In this document: one piece after another, positions 11,176 to 20,368 of the stretch | How positions within the stretch are numbered: the first letter of the stretch is position 1 | Layout of the letters: each line of letters begins with the position of its first letter | IMG/VR virus record: IMGVR_UViG_3300044858_004159 | Location: 1 to 30,571 of that record | DNA: 30,571 nt | Strand: one strand, 5' to 3' | Source: a virus | The notes under the pieces: generated by a model | The model's input: the letters and a program-made list of their open reading frames with translations, nothing else | The model's database searches: none | Told to the model about the DNA's origin: nothing | Program-made: the position numbers and the translations under genes

Positions 11176-11625
11176 TCAGTCCTCCACATCGCCGCCACGG
11201 TCGAAAGCCTCCCGGAACTGGGCCCACAGGTGCCCCTCCTTCTGGGCCCTCCCGATCGCCCACAGGTGTGGATCCAACAGGTAGAACACCTCGCCGCTGC
11301 GGCGGTTCCGGCAGCGCACCAGCAGGAATTCCTTCCGCAGCCGGGTCATCGACGTGTGGACGTTCGGGGGCTTGGTGCCCGACAGCTCCGCCAGGTGCTC
11401 AACACTGGCCTTGATCCGCCCCTGGTCCCGCCCAGCGGCCTTGCACATGCACACCTGCAGAGCTCGCACCACAACCAGGTCGCGGGGCTGCAGCTTCTTC
11501 TGCCGGATCAGCAGCAGCAGCCTGTCATCCATGGCGCTGGTGTCCGGCAGGTACATCTTGATGAAGTGCCTAGAGTCCATTCGTTGATCGCTGATGGGGC
11601 GGTCAGACAGCCCGCTTGCATCCAC
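11176..11625 (-). CDS. RepL-like winged-helix DNA-binding protein
   Basis: A 149-residue protein from a GTG at 11625 (an ATG at 11580 gives a 134-residue alternative). It has a helical DNA-binding core: ASVEHLAELSGTKPPNVHTS then TRLRKEFLLVRCRNR forms a helix-turn-helix, followed by a wing ending in GEVFYLLDPHLWAIGR. This wing pattern resembles RepL-type plasmid replication proteins and related phage regulators. It heads the leftward unit (acidic protein, terminase). Two TATAGGC copies lie 40-60 bp upstream. It could be a replication initiator or a transcription factor for its own operon. Confidence 0.6.
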   Translation of the reverse strand: MDASGLSDRPISDQRMDSRHFIKMYLPDTSAMDDRLLLLIRQKKLQPRDLVVVRALQVCMCKAAGRDQGRIKASVEHLAELSGTKPPNVHTSMTRLRKEFLLVRCRNRRSGEVFYLLDPHLWAIGRAQKEGHLWAQFREAFDRGGDVED

Positions 11626-11690: not shown

Positions 11691-12231
11691 CTACCCCCCA
11701 AACGCCACGCCACCACAGGCCCGTTTGGCAATTGATCTGATGATCTCTCTAGTGCTCCCATAGCAACCGTCGATCCAAGGCTCTCCCCGGATGCCGGGCC
11801 TCACGGCTGCTCTCCACCCCCCGAGCACACACATCCCCTCTTTCTCCTCGTGAATCCCGACGGAGCGCAGCGGAGACGGGATGCCCCGCCGGCGAGGCGG
11901 GCTGTTCAGGGGCGCTGTGGGGCGAAGCCGTACGAGACACCAACCCAGCAACAACGGGATCCACCGCAACCGCTGCAGCCCTGGTGCCCACTCACCCCCA
12001 GCACCCCGGAAAAATGTGGCGCATTTGGTCGGGGGGTCCCCTGAAGCGCTCGGCGCGCAATCCCCCCCCGGCGGGGGGTGCCGATCCACCCTGGGCAGTG
12101 GTCGCAGCCAGGGGACCAGCAGCAGCCAGGGCAGGTTGACCGTGCTGCAGGGGGTCTCGGTGGATTGAACATCCGCTGCGGGGCCATGCAGCCAGCACCA
12201 GGCAGGGCAAAAGCCACATGTCAACCCTGAA

Positions 12232-12910: not shown

Positions 12911-13098
12911 GCACCACCACTGCAGCCGTGGCAATCGCCGCGGCCTTCACCCTGGGCCCCGTGCTGCTGATCGCATACCAGCAACACCAGAAGCGGGAGC
13001 GCCGCCGCAAGGTTCAAGGCCAGATGGCGCCGAAGCGCCGGCCACCCGTGCGCTATCTCGTCGTGGTTCACCGCAACGAAAGGAGCCGGGACGCATGA
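12907..13098 (+). CDS. Small single-pass membrane protein
   Basis: A 63-residue protein whose ATG overlaps the previous stop. Residues 5-25 (TAAVAIAAAFTLGPVLLIAY) form one hydrophobic segment, followed by a very basic cytoplasmic-type tail (QKRERRRKVQ, APKRRPPVR), which suggests N-out topology. Small membrane proteins in early phage operons often act on host envelope functions or superinfection, but nothing here specifies a role. It is coupled to the winged-helix gene downstream. Confidence 0.6.
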   Translation: MSTTTAAVAIAAAFTLGPVLLIAYQQHQKRERRRKVQGQMAPKRRPPVRYLVVVHRNERSRDA

Positions 13099-13445
13099 AC
13101 CACCACCAGCAGCAGGCCGAGATGCTGCACCGGTTGAGGATGTCGGCAATCGAGTCCGCCGGCTGCGGTCGCGTCACCATCGCCACCGTGGAGGCCCTGC
13201 TCTGGGTCGCTGCTGGCGTGGACAACACCAAGGACCTCGGCACGGCCATGGGCCAGCCGGGGCGCCCCCAGGCTGTGGCCAGCACCAACCGCATCCTCTC
13301 GGCCCTCAGGGGCCGGGATCGGATGGCAGCGGGGAAATGGGTGCCGGCTCCGTTCCAGCTGATCAAGACCCGCCGGCACCCGCACCGCCGCGGCTACCTC
13401 CTAGCTCTGACCCCGGAAGCTGAAGAGCTTCTGGGGGGGGGGTAA
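13095..13445 (+). CDS. Winged-helix regulator 1 (MarR-like)
   Basis: A 116-residue protein with a MarR-like layout: a helix with VTIATVEALLWVAAG, then NTKDLGTAMGQPGRPQAVAS as helix-turn-helix, TNRILSALRGRDR, a beta wing (FQLIKTRRHPHRRGYLLALT) and a last helix PEAEELL. The same order occurs in the gene at 13622, so the two look like paralogs. The ATG overlaps the previous stop. It probably binds DNA as a dimer; targets may include the palindrome at 12232 or the CTAG repeats. The G run at its 3' end (13434-13442) is a potential slippage or assembly-error site. Confidence 0.55.
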   Translation: MNHHQQQAEMLHRLRMSAIESAGCGRVTIATVEALLWVAAGVDNTKDLGTAMGQPGRPQAVASTNRILSALRGRDRMAAGKWVPAPFQLIKTRRHPHRRGYLLALTPEAEELLGGG

Positions 13446-13621
13446 CTCCACCCCTGTAAATCAGGCCTAATCATGGAAACCAGGACTCTAATTCTCTCGA
13501 TCGAGGTACCCACCCACAAGGGCCCTTTTCACATTGCTGCATGGCTGCATCGGTCCCGCATCCGTTCCCGCGTCACGCTACAGGCCTGCACTAGTGTCCA
13601 CTCTAGTGTTCCCGCTAGTCC
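13446..13621. other. Regulatory gap before second MarR-like gene
   Basis: The gap holds CCTGTAAATCAGG (about 13448-13460), an imperfect palindrome sharing TGTAAATC with the 12232 operator candidate, and the CTAG repeat array described separately. An 80-codon frame crosses it (13473-13715) but has Arg/Ser/Trp-rich shadow composition and overlaps the next gene, so I do not call it. Confidence 0.5.
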
Positions 13622-13626
13622 ATGGA
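13589..13626 (+). repeat. CTAGT repeat array with 12-bp period
   Basis: CTAGT begins at 13591, 13603 and 13615, exactly 12 bp apart; the first two copies extend to CTAGTGT. The first lies in the palindrome CACTAGTG (13589-13596). The array reaches to within two bases of the ATG of the MarR-like gene at 13622, so a bound protein would block its transcription or translation. The same pattern recurs at 19664-19692. Confidence 0.8.
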
Positions 13627-13939
13627 TCTGGGCAAACTTGAGGCCGCTCTGGCCGCTTTCTCAGTTCTGGAGCCGACCGCGCTCCCGCTCCACCACGTCC
13701 AGGTCTTCCTGGTAGTCGCGCAGAAGGGGCCCATCCTCTATGACGACATTGAACGGACCCTGGGTCTATCCAATGCGTCTGTGTCCCGGACTGTGAATGC
13801 CCTCAGCGACGTTCACAGGACCGGGCGAGAAGGGCTCCGCCTGCTCAAGGTCGAAAAAGACCCAGAGGAGCGGCGCCGTTACCTGATCTCACTCTCGAGT
13901 CGGGGGCGGGCCCTACTCCGCCAGATCAAGAGACTGTAA
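13622..13939 (+). CDS. MarR-family-type winged-helix regulator 2
   Basis: The 105-residue protein follows the MarR fold order: LHHVQVFLVVAQKG, PILYDDIERTLGLSNASVSR as the recognition helix-turn-helix, TVNALSDV, a wing with LRLLKVEKDPEERRRYLISL, and the final helix SSRGRALLRQIKRL. It is shorter than typical cellular MarR proteins because the N- and C-terminal dimer helices are reduced. It likely represses or activates phage genes. Its own start is overlapped by three CTAGT repeats, which suggests autoregulation. The start ATG has no Shine-Dalgarno. Confidence 0.75.
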   Translation: MDLGKLEAALAAFSVLEPTALPLHHVQVFLVVAQKGPILYDDIERTLGLSNASVSRTVNALSDVHRTGREGLRLLKVEKDPEERRRYLISLSSRGRALLRQIKRL

Positions 13940-14307: not shown

Positions 14308-14493
14308 ATGACCCAACCCATACCCACCGTTGACGAAATCCTGGCCCGCACGCACCTAGGCGGCCATTTCCATGAATGGGGCGCTGATGGCGGCGTGATC
14401 CGCGTCACCCGCGCCGAGCTGCGTCCGGCTCTCGAAGGCGCCTACGACCCGACCATGCCCGATTGGCCCTCCACCGTGGAGCTGGGCGAATGA
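14308..14493 (+). CDS. Small protein upstream of integrase
   Basis: A 61-residue product from ATG 14308 (the frame is open from 14227 but the earlier codons are shadow-like). It begins MTQPIPTVDEILARTHLGG and contains WGADGGVIRVTRAELRPALEG. Its stop overlaps the integrase ATG (ATGA), so the two are translationally coupled. An excisionase would fit such a place, but the sequence lacks an obvious helix-turn-helix and I recognise no family. Confidence 0.55.
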   Translation: MTQPIPTVDEILARTHLGGHFHEWGADGGVIRVTRAELRPALEGAYDPTMPDWPSTVELGE

Positions 14494-15500
14494 CCGGAGC
14501 AGTCAGGAAACGAACCGATGCCAGCGGCCAGACCCGCTGGATCGCTGATGTCACGATCAACGGCAAACGCCGGCAGGCCAGCGGCTGGACGAAGGCCGAG
14601 GCCATTCGCAAGAAGAAGGAGCTGCAGGCGCTGCTGATCGCCGCCCCCTTATCGGCGGGAGACCAAACCTTCCAGCTCGCGGAAGCCAGGATGCTCAGCC
14701 TGAAAGTGCGCTGGGCCGGGTTGGCTTACGAGCGCACCGCGAGCATTTACAGCCAGGCTGCGGTCGATTTCTTTGGCCCTCACATGCCGCTGGGGGCAAT
14801 CAGCGCCACAGCGGTGGAGGAGTGGCGCTCCGCGCTGCGGGCCCAGGGCAACCGGCCGGCCACCATCAACCGGAAGGTCTCCGCCCTCAAAGCGATGTTC
14901 AGCGATGCCCATCTGCACGGACGCATCACCACCAGGCCGGCGATGCCCAAGCAGCTGAGGGCCGGCGGTGACAAGGACAGAGTGATGAGCGACCGCGAAC
15001 GGGACCAGTTCTGCGAGCACTTCCAGGCGATCGAGGAGCCCGCCGCGGCCCTTGTGCTGGTGTTCCTGCTGGAATCGTGCGCCCGCTGGGGAGAGGTGGA
15101 GAGGCTGCGCTGGAGCGATGTGGATTTCCAGCGGAGCAGGGTGACCTTCTGGAAGACGAAGAACCGCCATCCCCGCACCGTGCCTCTGACCGCCCGGGCC
15201 ATGGATGCAGTGAAGGCGGCCGGTGTGCCGGTGCCCAGCGCCAGGGTGTTCCCCTATTCCTACGACCGCTACCGCCGCCTGTTCGATCGAGCCAAGGAGC
15301 ACATGGGCCTCGCGCACGACCCGAGCCTGACCATCCACACCACCCGGCACACGTGTGCCTCGAAGCTGGCGAGCCGGGGGATCTCGTTGGTGCAGTTGAT
15401 GACCTTCGGGGGCTGGAGCTCCCTGGCTGCCGTGAAGCGCTACCTGCACCTCTCCACCGATGCCCTCTCGGCATGCGTGGAAGCGCTGGAGGCAGGGTGA
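14490..15500 (+). CDS. int: Tyrosine-type site-specific integrase
   Basis: From the ATG at 14490 the protein has 336 residues. The N-terminal arm-binding part (NGKRRQASGWTKAEAIRKKK, about 22-41) is followed by a SAM-like core-binding domain and the catalytic domain. All expected catalytic residues are visible: Arg199 (CARWGEVERL), a Lys in WKTKNRH (222 or 224), His283 and Arg286 (HTTRHT), Trp309 (FGGWSS) and Tyr318 (VKRYLHL). It would recombine a phage attP with a host attB; the tRNA-Leu-like segment at 17085-17129 is the likely attP core. Few T7-like phages carry integrases; some cyanopodoviruses do. Confidence 0.93.
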   Translation: MTGAVRKRTDASGQTRWIADVTINGKRRQASGWTKAEAIRKKKELQALLIAAPLSAGDQTFQLAEARMLSLKVRWAGLAYERTASIYSQAAVDFFGPHMPLGAISATAVEEWRSALRAQGNRPATINRKVSALKAMFSDAHLHGRITTRPAMPKQLRAGGDKDRVMSDRERDQFCEHFQAIEEPAAALVLVFLLESCARWGEVERLRWSDVDFQRSRVTFWKTKNRHPRTVPLTARAMDAVKAAGVPVPSARVFPYSYDRYRRLFDRAKEHMGLAHDPSLTIHTTRHTCASKLASRGISLVQLMTFGGWSSLAAVKRYLHLSTDALSACVEALEAG

Positions 15501-16364: not shown

Positions 16365-16973
16365 ATGAACGCCTCAGGCCTCAGCGTCCGCACGTGGAAT
16401 GACGCACCCATCAGCCGCCGCGACAGCGACGGTTACGCCGATGCCACGACCATGTGCCAGGCCAATGGCAAACGGTGGCACAACTACGAACGGCTCGACA
16501 CCTCCGCCGCTTACCTCCAGGCCCTGGCCGACTCCCTCGGCATCCCCGCCGATCGGCTGGTGCTCACCACCACCACCGGCCCCAACCGTTTCCGTGGCAC
16601 CTGGATCCATCCACGTCTCGCCGTGGACCTGGCCCGCTGGATCTCACCGCAGTTCGCGGTGTGGATGGATGGCTGGTTCCTCGAAGAGCTGGAGGCCAAA
16701 GCCAAGCCCAGCCCGTCGCGGCCCTTCATGGTGCTGCCGGGCGAAGACGTGTCGGAGGTGATCAGCGTTCTCTGCGCCGATCTCAGCAGGGAGTCCGAAC
16801 GGCTGGCGGCCATGACTGGATGGCCAACGCGGGGATCCCTGGCCACAGCGGCCGAGTGCCTGGCCCTGATCAGGAGGCGAGCGGCCGTGATCCAAAGCCT
16901 GCTGTCCATCGTTCAGCCGATGGGCCGAGGTGGCGCCATGCCGTCCGCCGTGGTGGTCCTGCAGACCCCGTAA
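16365..16973 (+). CDS. KilA-N domain protein (antirepressor-like)
   Basis: From ATG 16365 (context AGAAACAACC) the protein has 202 residues. Residues about 7-110 form a KilA-N domain: VRTWNDAPISRRDSDGYADA, TTMCQANGKRWHNYERL, a middle helix, then GTWIHPRLAVDLARWISPQF and WMDGWFLEEL. KilA-N domains bind DNA and occur in phage antirepressors and lysogeny-switch proteins. The C-terminal 80 residues are helical and unassigned. It has its own promoter candidate and sits between integrase and RNA polymerase, right next to the putative attP. Confidence 0.85.
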   Translation: MNASGLSVRTWNDAPISRRDSDGYADATTMCQANGKRWHNYERLDTSAAYLQALADSLGIPADRLVLTTTTGPNRFRGTWIHPRLAVDLARWISPQFAVWMDGWFLEELEAKAKPSPSRPFMVLPGEDVSEVISVLCADLSRESERLAAMTGWPTRGSLATAAECLALIRRRAAVIQSLLSIVQPMGRGGAMPSAVVVLQTP

Positions 16974-17239: not shown

Positions 17240-19660
17240 ATGAATCCGCCAAGCAGCAAATCCACCACGGTGGACAGGGACCTCCAGCAGCGGCTGGAAT
17301 GGCAGGAAGCCACCAACGCCGAGCAACGAGCGCTGGTGATGCGGCAGGCGCTTCGCCGGTATCGGCGGGAAAGCTGCACCGAATACGGAACCGCCCTGTT
17401 TCAGCAGTTCGCTGATCCCGTCAGCCGAGAGATCGAGGCGATTCTTTATCGCTGGGGCGAGAACCCCCAGCTGGGTGGCCCTGGTTATGGGGCTCTGCCG
17501 CTGGTGGCCGCCCTCGGCAGCCCGCAACGCATCGCGGCGGTGGCCCTGGTCACGATCCTTGACCGCCTCTCCCACGCCGTCAGCTTCCAGGGGCTCGCCT
17601 TGTCCATCGGTGTGGCCGTGGATGCCGAGGTGAAGGCCGGCGAGATTGGCAAGCGATCCCCGGCCAGCCTGGATCGACTGCTTGAGAGGACCACAGCGGA
17701 GAAGCGCAAAGCGGTGCTGGCGATCGCCGCCCGGCCGATCGAGGGATCCAACCCGATCTGGACGCGGCTGGAGCGGGCGACGGTGGGCCTGCTGCTGCTC
17801 GAGGTGGTGCGACGCGAAACCGGGCTGGTGATTATCGACAAGAGCGACCAGCCCAACCGGCGGGCCCAGTGGCGGGTGCTGCCATCAGCCAAGGCCCTGG
17901 ACTTCATCCGGCGCCACCCTCCCCGCAGTCTCCGGCCGAACCGGGGGCCGATGGTGATCGAGCCGATCCCCTGGGAGGGGCTGGTAGGCGGTGGCCACCT
18001 GGCCAACACCTCCCCGGTGGTGCAGATCCGGGCGGCGCGAGGCCACATGGCCATCAGCTACCTGTCGGGCCGGATCGGTCCGCAGCTGGCAGCCGTCAAC
18101 GTCCTGCAGCGGCAGCAGCTGGAGGTAGACCCGTGGATGCTGCGGGTGCAGCGGGAGGCGTGGGACCGGAACATCCCCGGCCTGTTTCCGGTCGAGCGGG
18201 ATCCTGTCCCCGATGCGGGGCCGTTCCCCACCAGCGAACCGCCGGATGTGCAGGATGCCTGGCGGCGCGACCAGGCCCGGCACCACCAGGATCTGAGGGA
18301 CAACAGCTCCAAGCGGCTGGCGATCGAGCGGGCACTCCAGACAGGTGAGGCGCTGGCTGGCAGGCCGATCTATCAGGCCCATTTCCTCGACTTCCGTGGC
18401 CGGGCCTTCACCGCAAACCGGGGTCTCACGCACCAGGGCCCCGACCACCAGAAGGCACTGCTGCGGTTTGCCTCAAGCCAAAGCGTTGGAGTCGACGGGT
18501 TCGACTGGATCTTGAAGGCTGCCGCGGGGCACTGGGGTCTGACGCGCCACGAATGGAGTGCTCGGCTGGAGTGGGGCTTACAGGAAATTTGGCGGCTGAA
18601 AGCAATCGCGGACGATCCAATCGGCAACGCCGACCAATGGCGGCAAGCCAAGCAGCCTTGGCAGTTTCTGCAAATGGCCAAAGCTTGGGCGGAGCCGATC
18701 GGCAGGAGCAGCAGACACAAGGTTCCCATCCGCCTGGATCAAACCTGCTCCGGCGCCGGGATTATCGCGACCCTGCTCCGGGATCGAGCGATGGCCGAGC
18801 TCTGCAACGTCTGTGGCACCGGGCCGAACGACCTCTATTCCGTCGTGGTGAAGCGACTGCAGCAGCAGCTGGAGATCGATCTGCATTGCGGGGATGCGCG
18901 GACCCACCAGCTGGCCGCCGGCTGGCTGGAACTTGGCATCGATCGCAGCTGGGTGAAGGCCGCCGTGATGCACACACCGTTCGGCAGCACCTCCCGCACC
19001 GTGGCCGATGGCATCCGGGATCAACTGCAGCAGCGGCTGGGGCCCGTGGATGACTGGGCAGGCCGGATCTACCGGCCCAGCAGCTACCTGGAATCCAGGC
19101 TGCGGGTGGTGATCGGCACCGAAACCGCATCCCTGATGCAGCTCCGCCGCTGGCTCTGCGATGTGGGCCGCGAGGTGGTCGGCTACCACCAGCAACAGAT
19201 CAGGTGGACCACGCCGATGGGGTGGCCCATGCAGGTAGGCCGGCCGACACCCAGTAAATCCGTGATCCGCACGCACCTCCTCGGCAAGCTCGCAGCCGTC
19301 ACCTTCGAGGAGGACCCGCCGGAAGGCGAGCTGAGCGCCCGGCGGACCAACGGCAGCATCACCGCCAACCTGGTGCATTCCTTCGACGCGGCACTGGTGC
19401 ATGCCGTGGCCTACAGGGCTGGAGAACAAGGTGTGCCGTTGCTGACCAACCACGACTGTTTCGCCACTGATCCGGCCAACGCCAGCTGGTTGCAGAAGAC
19501 CTTGCTCGACGAGTTCCGGGCCCTCTATGCCACCGACTGGCTGGAGGCCATCGCCGAGGAGATCCGTTGCAACGCAGGGCTTAAGGCGCTGCCGCTGCCG
19601 CCACCACGGGGAGCGCTGGAGATCGGCGAGATCGGCAGTAACCCGTATCTGTTCAGCTAG
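17240..19660 (+). CDS. Single-subunit T7-like RNA polymerase
   Basis: The 806-residue protein (T7: 883) carries the phage and mitochondrial RNA polymerase motifs: an FRGRAF block (Arg386 region, T7 Arg425), motif A with Asp500 (RLDQTCSG), motif B with Lys573 (WVKAAVMHTPFGS) and motif C with Asp739 (NHDCFATD), plus NLVHSFDAALVHAV and a YLFS foot in place of T7 FAFA. Asp500 and Asp739 are the metal ligands. In motif B the residue matching T7 Tyr639 is Phe581, which is unusual. It would transcribe middle and late genes from phage promoters. The start ATG follows CCTGCAGC without a Shine-Dalgarno. Confidence 0.95.
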   Translation: MNPPSSKSTTVDRDLQQRLEWQEATNAEQRALVMRQALRRYRRESCTEYGTALFQQFADPVSREIEAILYRWGENPQLGGPGYGALPLVAALGSPQRIAAVALVTILDRLSHAVSFQGLALSIGVAVDAEVKAGEIGKRSPASLDRLLERTTAEKRKAVLAIAARPIEGSNPIWTRLERATVGLLLLEVVRRETGLVIIDKSDQPNRRAQWRVLPSAKALDFIRRHPPRSLRPNRGPMVIEPIPWEGLVGGGHLANTSPVVQIRAARGHMAISYLSGRIGPQLAAVNVLQRQQLEVDPWMLRVQREAWDRNIPGLFPVERDPVPDAGPFPTSEPPDVQDAWRRDQARHHQDLRDNSSKRLAIERALQTGEALAGRPIYQAHFLDFRGRAFTANRGLTHQGPDHQKALLRFASSQSVGVDGFDWILKAAAGHWGLTRHEWSARLEWGLQEIWRLKAIADDPIGNADQWRQAKQPWQFLQMAKAWAEPIGRSSRHKVPIRLDQTCSGAGIIATLLRDRAMAELCNVCGTGPNDLYSVVVKRLQQQLEIDLHCGDARTHQLAAGWLELGIDRSWVKAAVMHTPFGSTSRTVADGIRDQLQQRLGPVDDWAGRIYRPSSYLESRLRVVIGTETASLMQLRRWLCDVGREVVGYHQQQIRWTTPMGWPMQVGRPTPSKSVIRTHLLGKLAAVTFEEDPPEGELSARRTNGSITANLVHSFDAALVHAVAYRAGEQGVPLLTNHDCFATDPANASWLQKTLLDEFRALYATDWLEAIAEEIRCNAGLKALPLPPPRGALEIGEIGSNPYLFS

Positions 19661-19661
19661 G

Positions 19662-19692
19662 CACTAGCGCCAGCGCTAGTGGATGCCCTAGT
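19662..19692 (+). promoter_or_regulatory. CTAG palindrome/repeat operator before SSB operon
   Basis: CACTAGCGC CA GCGCTAGTG (19662-19681) is a perfect 9-bp inverted repeat. CTAG starts at 19664, 19676 and 19688, exactly 12 bp apart, as in the array before the MarR-like gene at 13622. The third copy overlaps the -10-like TAGTAT (19689-19694), and the palindrome covers the -35 region, so a bound regulator would control the SSB operon. Confidence 0.7.
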
Positions 19693-19720: not shown

Positions 19721-20368
19721 ATGGCATCCGAAACGCTGGTCACTCCGGCCGGCGAGGTCCTGTTTGCAAACGTCCTCAAGCCCAAGCTGATCAAGAACGA
19801 TTCAGGCGAAAAGATGCAGTACGGAATCGTGCTGCTTCAAGCTGATCCCGATCAAGATTCCGGGGCAAAGGCCTTCATTGGATCTCTTCATCACGCCTTC
19901 ATGGCCCACTTTGGCGGCAATGCAAAGTACGGGCCGAATGGCAAGCCGTGGAAGCGTGAAACGACCGTTGGCGACAACGGCGTCGAGACTCCTACCGGGC
20001 TTTATCGGATTACATTCGCTCGCGATACGAGAACCAGCCGTGGGACCGAGTTACCGCCCCCTATGGTGCAAGACGCCAAGGGGAACCCGTGGCCTGTTGA
20101 TGTCGCGATCGGCAACGGCTCGGTTTGCAAGATTGCTTATTCCACTTACCTTTGGAACAACGAAAAAGGCGGCAAAGGTGTAACCCTGCAGCTACTTGGC
20201 GTGCGCGTTCTCAATCACGTCCCCTACTCCATGCGAGCCGTGGATCCCGGTGTCTTCGGTGCGCCCGAGGAGGGCACGGACGCCACCACCCTGGCCCCTG
20301 CTGCCGCGGATCCGTTTGGGTTCGATGCTGCCGAGGGTTTCGCCAGTACTGAAGAGGTGCCCTGGTGA
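19721..20368 (+). CDS. Single-stranded DNA-binding protein (gp2.5-like)
   Basis: From ATG 19721 the protein has 215 residues, similar in size to T7 gp2.5. It begins with an OB-type region (TLVTPAGEVLFANVLKPKLI, MQYGIVLLQ), has a beta core with GLYRITFARDTR and VTLQLLGVRVLNHV, and ends in an acidic, aromatic-tipped tail (FASTEEVPW). A tail of this kind docks replication partners in phage and bacterial SSBs. It is the first gene of the operon behind the CTAG operator. The ATG has CTGCAGAGC directly upstream. Its stop overlaps the next GTG (GTGA). Confidence 0.8.
   Translation: MASETLVTPAGEVLFANVLKPKLIKNDSGEKMQYGIVLLQADPDQDSGAKAFIGSLHHAFMAHFGGNAKYGPNGKPWKRETTVGDNGVETPTGLYRITFARDTRTSRGTELPPPMVQDAKGNPWPVDVAIGNGSVCKIAYSTYLWNNEKGGKGVTLQLLGVRVLNHVPYSMRAVDPGVFGAPEEGTDATTLAPAAADPFGFDAAEGFASTEEVPW

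Follow-up and report, generated by a model that had tools for sequence, protein, structure and literature searches.

MarR-integrase-RNA polymerase (RNAP) modules are known from temperate-like Autographiviridae such as Pseudomonas phage LUZ100, and MarR has been proposed as the lysogeny repressor (PMC10134795). Boeckman et al. (2022), as cited in PMC10134795, place the MarR sites of their model on either side of a promoter that precedes the RNAP gene. T7-like cyanophages have integrases and are able to integrate, and a study of this question reported that it found no homologues of lytic-cycle repressors (PMC8776855).

Here, we analysed a stretch of 30,571 bp (the window), which belongs to a T7-type (Autographiviridae) phage carrying an integrase. 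Arrays of the tetranucleotide CTAG are found at the start of its MarR-like gene and directly past its RNAP gene. We consider it rather likely that these arrays are operators of a phage winged-helix repressor, with the MarR-like protein wHTH-B (gene marR) as the most probable binder.

Results

The genes of the window are arranged in the order of early genes, wHTH-A, ORF X, wHTH-B, integrase, single-subunit RNAP, and a gp2.5-like ssDNA-binding protein (SSB), followed 3' of SSB by resolvase, exonuclease, portal, scaffold, and capsid genes. SSB starts at a conserved ATGGCATCC, and this start is kept in relatives. Among isolates, Synechococcus phage S-SRP02 is the closest, and a contig whose MarR protein is 93% identical to that of the window was binned with a Cyanobium genome, so the host is likely a picocyanobacterium. 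The relative L210 (BJHE01000017.1) is a 44.8-kb contig binned as Cyanobium; its ends match each other at 92% and both carry phage-like sequence, so that it has the look of a free phage genome more than of an integrated one. We found no prophage flanked by host DNA. Of ten family members tested, only the window, L004, and L005 carry a KilA-N-like gene (16365-16919 in the window) between integrase and RNAP; the gene is probably a mobile insertion. Its product had been named in a preliminary description of this DNA as a possible binder of the arrays; we rejected it as a conserved binder, as all ten members have the arrays and only three have the gene.

Table 1. Genes and candidate control sites discussed in the text, with positions in the window.
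Feature	Positions	Strand	Description
Winged-helix-like gene	11176..11580	-	adjoins early site; weak Pfam HTH matches; homologue of S-SRP02 p013
Single CTAG site TCTCTCTAGTG (CTAG 11749)	11742..11764	.	divergent early region; weaker candidate operator
wHTH-A, second winged-helix protein	13095..13445	+	distant paralogue of wHTH-B; alternative binder
ORF X	13473..13715	+	80 aa; overlaps marR out of frame; array 1 inside
Array 1, CTAG-N8-CTAG-N8-CTAG	13591..13618	.	three adjoining CRCTAGYG-type palindromic units at 12 bp, 3 bp short of marR ATG; predicted operator
wHTH-B (marR), MarR-like regulator	13622..13939	+	PHROG 9665 E 2.3e-24; proposed binder of CTAG operators
Tyrosine integrase	14463..15500	+	PHROG integrase E 1.8e-52; homology with relatives from near 14490
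T7-type single-subunit RNAP	17240..19660	+	Pfam RNA_pol 3.5e-46, phrog_414 3.1e-128
Array 2, CTAG-N3-CTAG-N8-CTAG-N8-CTAG	19657..19691	.	spans RNAP stop codon into RNAP-SSB gap; predicted operator of replication genes
gp2.5-like SSB	19721..20368	+	phrog_112 E 1.2e-16; first gene 3' of array 2

CTAG occurs 23 times in the window, as compared to 51 +/- 6 in dinucleotide shuffles, and is therefore under-represented, which bears out the preliminary description of it as rare. That description had also placed three CTAGT words near the ATG at 13622, and the words are indeed found at 13591, 13603, and 13615, the first within CACTAGTG and the last ending two bases 5' of the ATG. Recurrence of the 12-bp period at 19664 was confirmed as well, with words at 19664, 19676, and 19688 directly past the RNAP stop codon; these read CTAGC, CTAGT, and CTAGT, and a fourth CTAG at 19657, 7 bp upstream of 19664, includes the stop codon and is also conserved. 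Written as units, array 1 is CACTAGTG-N4-CTCTAGTG-N4-CGCTAGTC and array 2 is CACTAGCG-N4-CGCTAGTG-N4-CCCTAGTA, each unit consisting of a roughly palindromic CRCTAGYG octamer plus four free bases, which makes 12 bp. The strict pattern CTAG-N8-CTAG-N8-CTAG occurs at exactly two places in the window, 13591-13618 and 19664-19691, and allowing up to three mismatches to the triplet still returned only 13591 and 19664 (four strand matches; 0.04 expected). When 23 words were placed randomly, the probability of a 12-bp triple was 2e-5, and none of 200,000 trials gave two equally spaced triples; shuffled sequences contain practically no such triplets. A different repeat, ACACCCCTGCAG, which precedes both SSB and ORF X, was discarded as a candidate phage promoter, because it is not enriched and is absent from L009 and the distant relatives.

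Both arrays are conserved with exact CTAG words and 12-bp spacing in all nine close relatives (L003-L009, L019, and L210), while the spacer bases vary. Neither outcome named in the preliminary description as refuting the pattern, a spacing lost in close relatives or equal numbers of triplets in shuffles, was seen. In the 3.5-Mb Cyanobium bin that holds L210, the triplet pattern occurs at these two places only. A scan of the contig collection for the bare CTAGT triplet matched at least 120 contigs, and tblastn with the window proteins found no homologue on those of them that were listed, so the bare pattern is unspecific when taken out of context.

A profile search for distant relatives gave 80 loci. 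About 44 of the more distant relatives, with MarR proteins 45-61% identical, have CTAG palindromes (ACTC-CTAG-GAGT) at both array places, as single copies or pairs 23 bp apart and without 12-bp triple arrays at marR or the gap. At the place homologous to array 1 these genomes have ACTCCTAGGAGT. In distant loci with Val or Ile at residue 54 of the MarR protein, the upstream CTAG is mostly at exactly -25 from marR, in or near this palindrome, and in the RNAP-SSB gap there are usually two such palindromes at a distance of 23 bp. All 37 distinct Val54 proteins have a CTAG within 80 bp upstream (3.8 expected), and 23 of 24 have one in the RNAP-SSB gap (2.3 expected), while for Ala54 loci the counts are 1/28 upstream and 1/23 in the gap, though many of these have more CTAG overall. 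CTAG presence at the two places goes together, and a sister clade is without the CTAG class at both. A further palindrome copy is found at -184 in many distant genomes. In the CTAG-lacking clade (e.g., L184-L198), another shared word, approximately CATACGA/CATGCGAC, was seen by eye at both places, in front of marR and between RNAP and SSB; judged by its placement, it may perhaps be the operator of the Ala54 MarR proteins.

The single early site at 11749 is kept in L003, L007, L008, L009, L019, and L210, and the corresponding early region of S-SRP02 and its relatives has a CTCCTAGGAG pair 13-14 bp apart. Just 3' of the early CTAG pair in L140 (10050-10130) and relatives, there is a conserved inverted repeat, approximately TTGCCCC..CTGG....ACCCAGTGGGGGCAA.

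In the RNAP-SSB gap, a sigma70-like TTG-N20-TANNNT element was found in 19 of 20 distant CTAG-bearing loci (0.3 expected in shuffles). Most of the promoter-bearing loci have one CTAG between the boxes and another just upstream of the -35, which, as far as the predicted promoters go, is the classic layout of a repressor. A sigma70 scan recognised no promoter at either window array, and the element was found in the gap of none of eight window-family members; a weak TAGTAT -10-like box overlaps the final CTAG of the window gap array.

Array 1 is located inside ORF X, whose out-of-frame overlap with the start of marR is present in essentially every relative and is unannotated in S-SRP02. In relatives the frame extends from about -149 to +91 or more from the marR ATG and has the motif LHRCxTPRS...PWI. 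ORF X appears to be coding, because its differences per site at codon positions 1, 2, and 3 are 0.38, 0.23, and 0.55 in the relatives examined, with the reading frame open. The four codons holding the CTAG palindrome have only 0.05, 0.00, and 0.03 differences per site. The codons for Pro, Arg, Ser, and Thr leave much synonymous freedom and yet the CTAG core is near-invariant, which indicates that the DNA word itself is kept.

wHTH-B matches Pfam MarR_2 with E 4.9e-4 and 20.6 bits, below the cut-off of 27, and is therefore called MarR-like. Its AF2 monomer model (pLDDT 85.6, pTM 0.79) predicts a MarR winged-helix fold; the top PDB folds are MarR-family proteins (E 2.2e-5), including E. coli MarR with operator DNA (5h3r). 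With 105 aa, as compared to 131-166 aa for its PDB matches, it is shorter than most MarR proteins, so its dimerisation is uncertain. The helix at residues 51-61 (NASVSRTVNAL) is likely the recognition helix according to the model. Residue 54 in this helix tracks the motif, with CTAG upstream for 38/38 distinct MarR proteins having Val or Ile and for 1/28 having Ala, an association that is confounded by phylogeny, the uvMED S31-C1/L194 lineage combining Ala54 with CTAG.

In L019 (10001-10144), marR has lost about 58 codons, including those for the recognition helix, through a clean in-frame deletion, and both CTAG arrays remain; this is either a natural null mutant for the repressor or an artefact of assembly. 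An iterated HMM started from the protein at 13095 recovers wHTH-A and wHTH-B in nearly every relative. The 3' end of the wHTH-A gene carries a G run (13433-13442 in the window), which varies from 7 to about 17 between relatives and is a possible slippage site altering the C-terminus.

Discussion

The joint conservation of the two arrays, the use of the same palindrome class at both places in distant relatives, and the absence of both in the sister clade support the earlier proposal that one protein serves both places. The idea of autorepression at marR fared unevenly: joint conservation favours autoregulation, while simple occlusion of a promoter at array 1 is not supported, with no sigma70-like promoter seen and the array lying inside ORF X. 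The 12-bp period had been read as iteron-like, and we found instead that it is peculiar to the window family, relatives having single palindromes or pairs with a spacing of 13-14 or 23 bp. Because relatives use single or differently spaced CTAG palindromes, the operator unit looks like one palindrome of about 12 bp.

We suggest that each CTAG-centred palindrome (CRCTAGYG in the window, ACTC-CTAG-GAGT in relatives) would be the site of one repressor dimer, and that the three units standing end to end in the window family would be filled side by side and cooperatively; the exact 12-bp period would then come from contiguous 12-bp units (4-4-4, as in ACTC-CTAG-GAGT). Repressor bound at its own gene start would limit its own synthesis, and repressor bound between RNAP and SSB would keep host RNA polymerase off the promoter from which SSB and the replication genes are expressed, while the weaker early site would control the divergent early region. 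Low repressor would lead to lytic growth, and high repressor would keep early and replication genes off. For the window family, repression is an extrapolation, because the gap promoter is recognised in relatives and in 0/8 members of this family. Alternatively, each CTAG may be a half-site, with a dimer bridging two; the midpoint of the first two CTAG words of array 1 falls exactly where relatives have the middle of their single CTAG, which may be chance (one in six). More tentatively, and with doubt prevailing, the MarR-like protein and its CTAG operators might form a lambda CI-like switch that silences early and replication promoters while the phage is integrated, and that in one lineage has come to use cooperatively filled 12-bp triplets, one of them inside an overlapping gene.

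The evidence on the identity of the binder is divided. wHTH-A and wHTH-B are homologous and lie side by side in nearly all relatives, wHTH-A also differs between the clades with and without CTAG, and L019 keeps both arrays with an intact wHTH-A though its marR is without the DNA-binding core, all of which speaks for wHTH-A or an A-B heterodimer acting on the same operators. However, the conserved site is at the start of wHTH-B and not of wHTH-A, and only wHTH-B matches the MarR family in PHROGs or Pfam; we therefore regard wHTH-A, or the heterodimer, as an unlikely, although still serious, candidate. With wHTH-B retained as the favoured repressor, the direction of control has to be weighed too. 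The missing TTG-N20-TANNNT element in the window-family gap and the weak TAGTAT box overlapping the last CTAG would fit a regulator that recruits host RNA polymerase from the arrays to a promoter lacking a -35 box, but in relatives one CTAG is placed between the boxes, so that a dimer on it would obstruct the polymerase. Activation seems improbable overall, although for the window family it is still a rival to be reckoned with.

Array 2 is located where T7-like phages place middle promoters, LUZ100 having phi2 and phi3 between RNAP and SSB, so the arrays could be promoters of the phage's own polymerase. We give this little credence: there are two arrays only and none before the capsid genes, the units are palindromic rather than an asymmetric consensus of about 20 bp, the mapped LUZ100 phi2 and phi3 have no shared CTAG, and in relatives CTAG lies between sigma70-like -35 and -10 boxes. 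Arm-type sites of the integrase or replication iterons are extremely unlikely despite the nearby integrase gene and the equal spacing of the repeats, as the arrays are about 6 kb apart with an early site in addition, the palindromic units lie at gene starts and promoters, and the spacing varies with lineage and site (12, 13-14, or 23 bp). Hairpins in the transcript, which the mutual pairing of the CTAG words and the folding of L019 array 1 (z -3.15 relative to shuffles) might suggest, were rejected with scarcely any probability left to them, for z is near zero in other homologues except window array 1 (-2.1), the structures are not shared between homologues, and the third pairs are broken without compensation in L007 and L008. 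Repressor operators, most probably of wHTH-B, thus remain our preferred explanation.

A repressor candidate, with its proposed operator sequence and target promoters, can now be named for a large clade of related phages. The clade includes S-SRP02, an isolate with a cultured host, Synechococcus SR-C1, and one or two proteins and three short DNAs would suffice to test the lysis-lysogeny question. If the proposal is true, such a switch has not previously been found in this virus group, the phages of freshwater cyanobacteria.

Repressors of the MarR family bind short palindromes close to the gene that encodes them. wHTH-B resembles this family in its predicted fold and in the short palindromic candidate sites at its own gene, and differs in its length of 105 aa and in CTAG-centred operators that are contiguous in triplets. 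Phage P-SSP7 has a homologous regulator, gp0.7 (37% identity), before integrase and RNAP, but is without a CTAG triple, and its SSB adjoins RNAP without a gap. S-SRP02 (MW822601, PMC8790148) and the uvMED G9 phages S38-C3 and S31-C1 share the gene order of the window, with MarR proteins 45-56% identical and CTAG palindromes at marR and RNAP-SSB, yet they have one or two palindromes per place instead of 12-bp triples; a term search of the S-SRP02 paper (PMC8790148) found no mention of promoters or palindromes. In the literature searched, we did not find CTAG-core operators, their placement 3' of the RNAP gene, or the triplet form. As in the LUZ100 module, the window has a MarR-like gene, a tyrosine integrase, and a phage RNAP in that order. 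In contrast to the model of Boeckman et al., its CTAG sites are at the marR start, at the early site, and 3' of RNAP before SSB, and no CTAG lies between 14359 and 19657; sites of the CTAG type do not flank a promoter in front of the RNAP gene. The module as such is known, whereas the predicted operators and their location 3' rather than 5' of the RNAP gene appear to be new.
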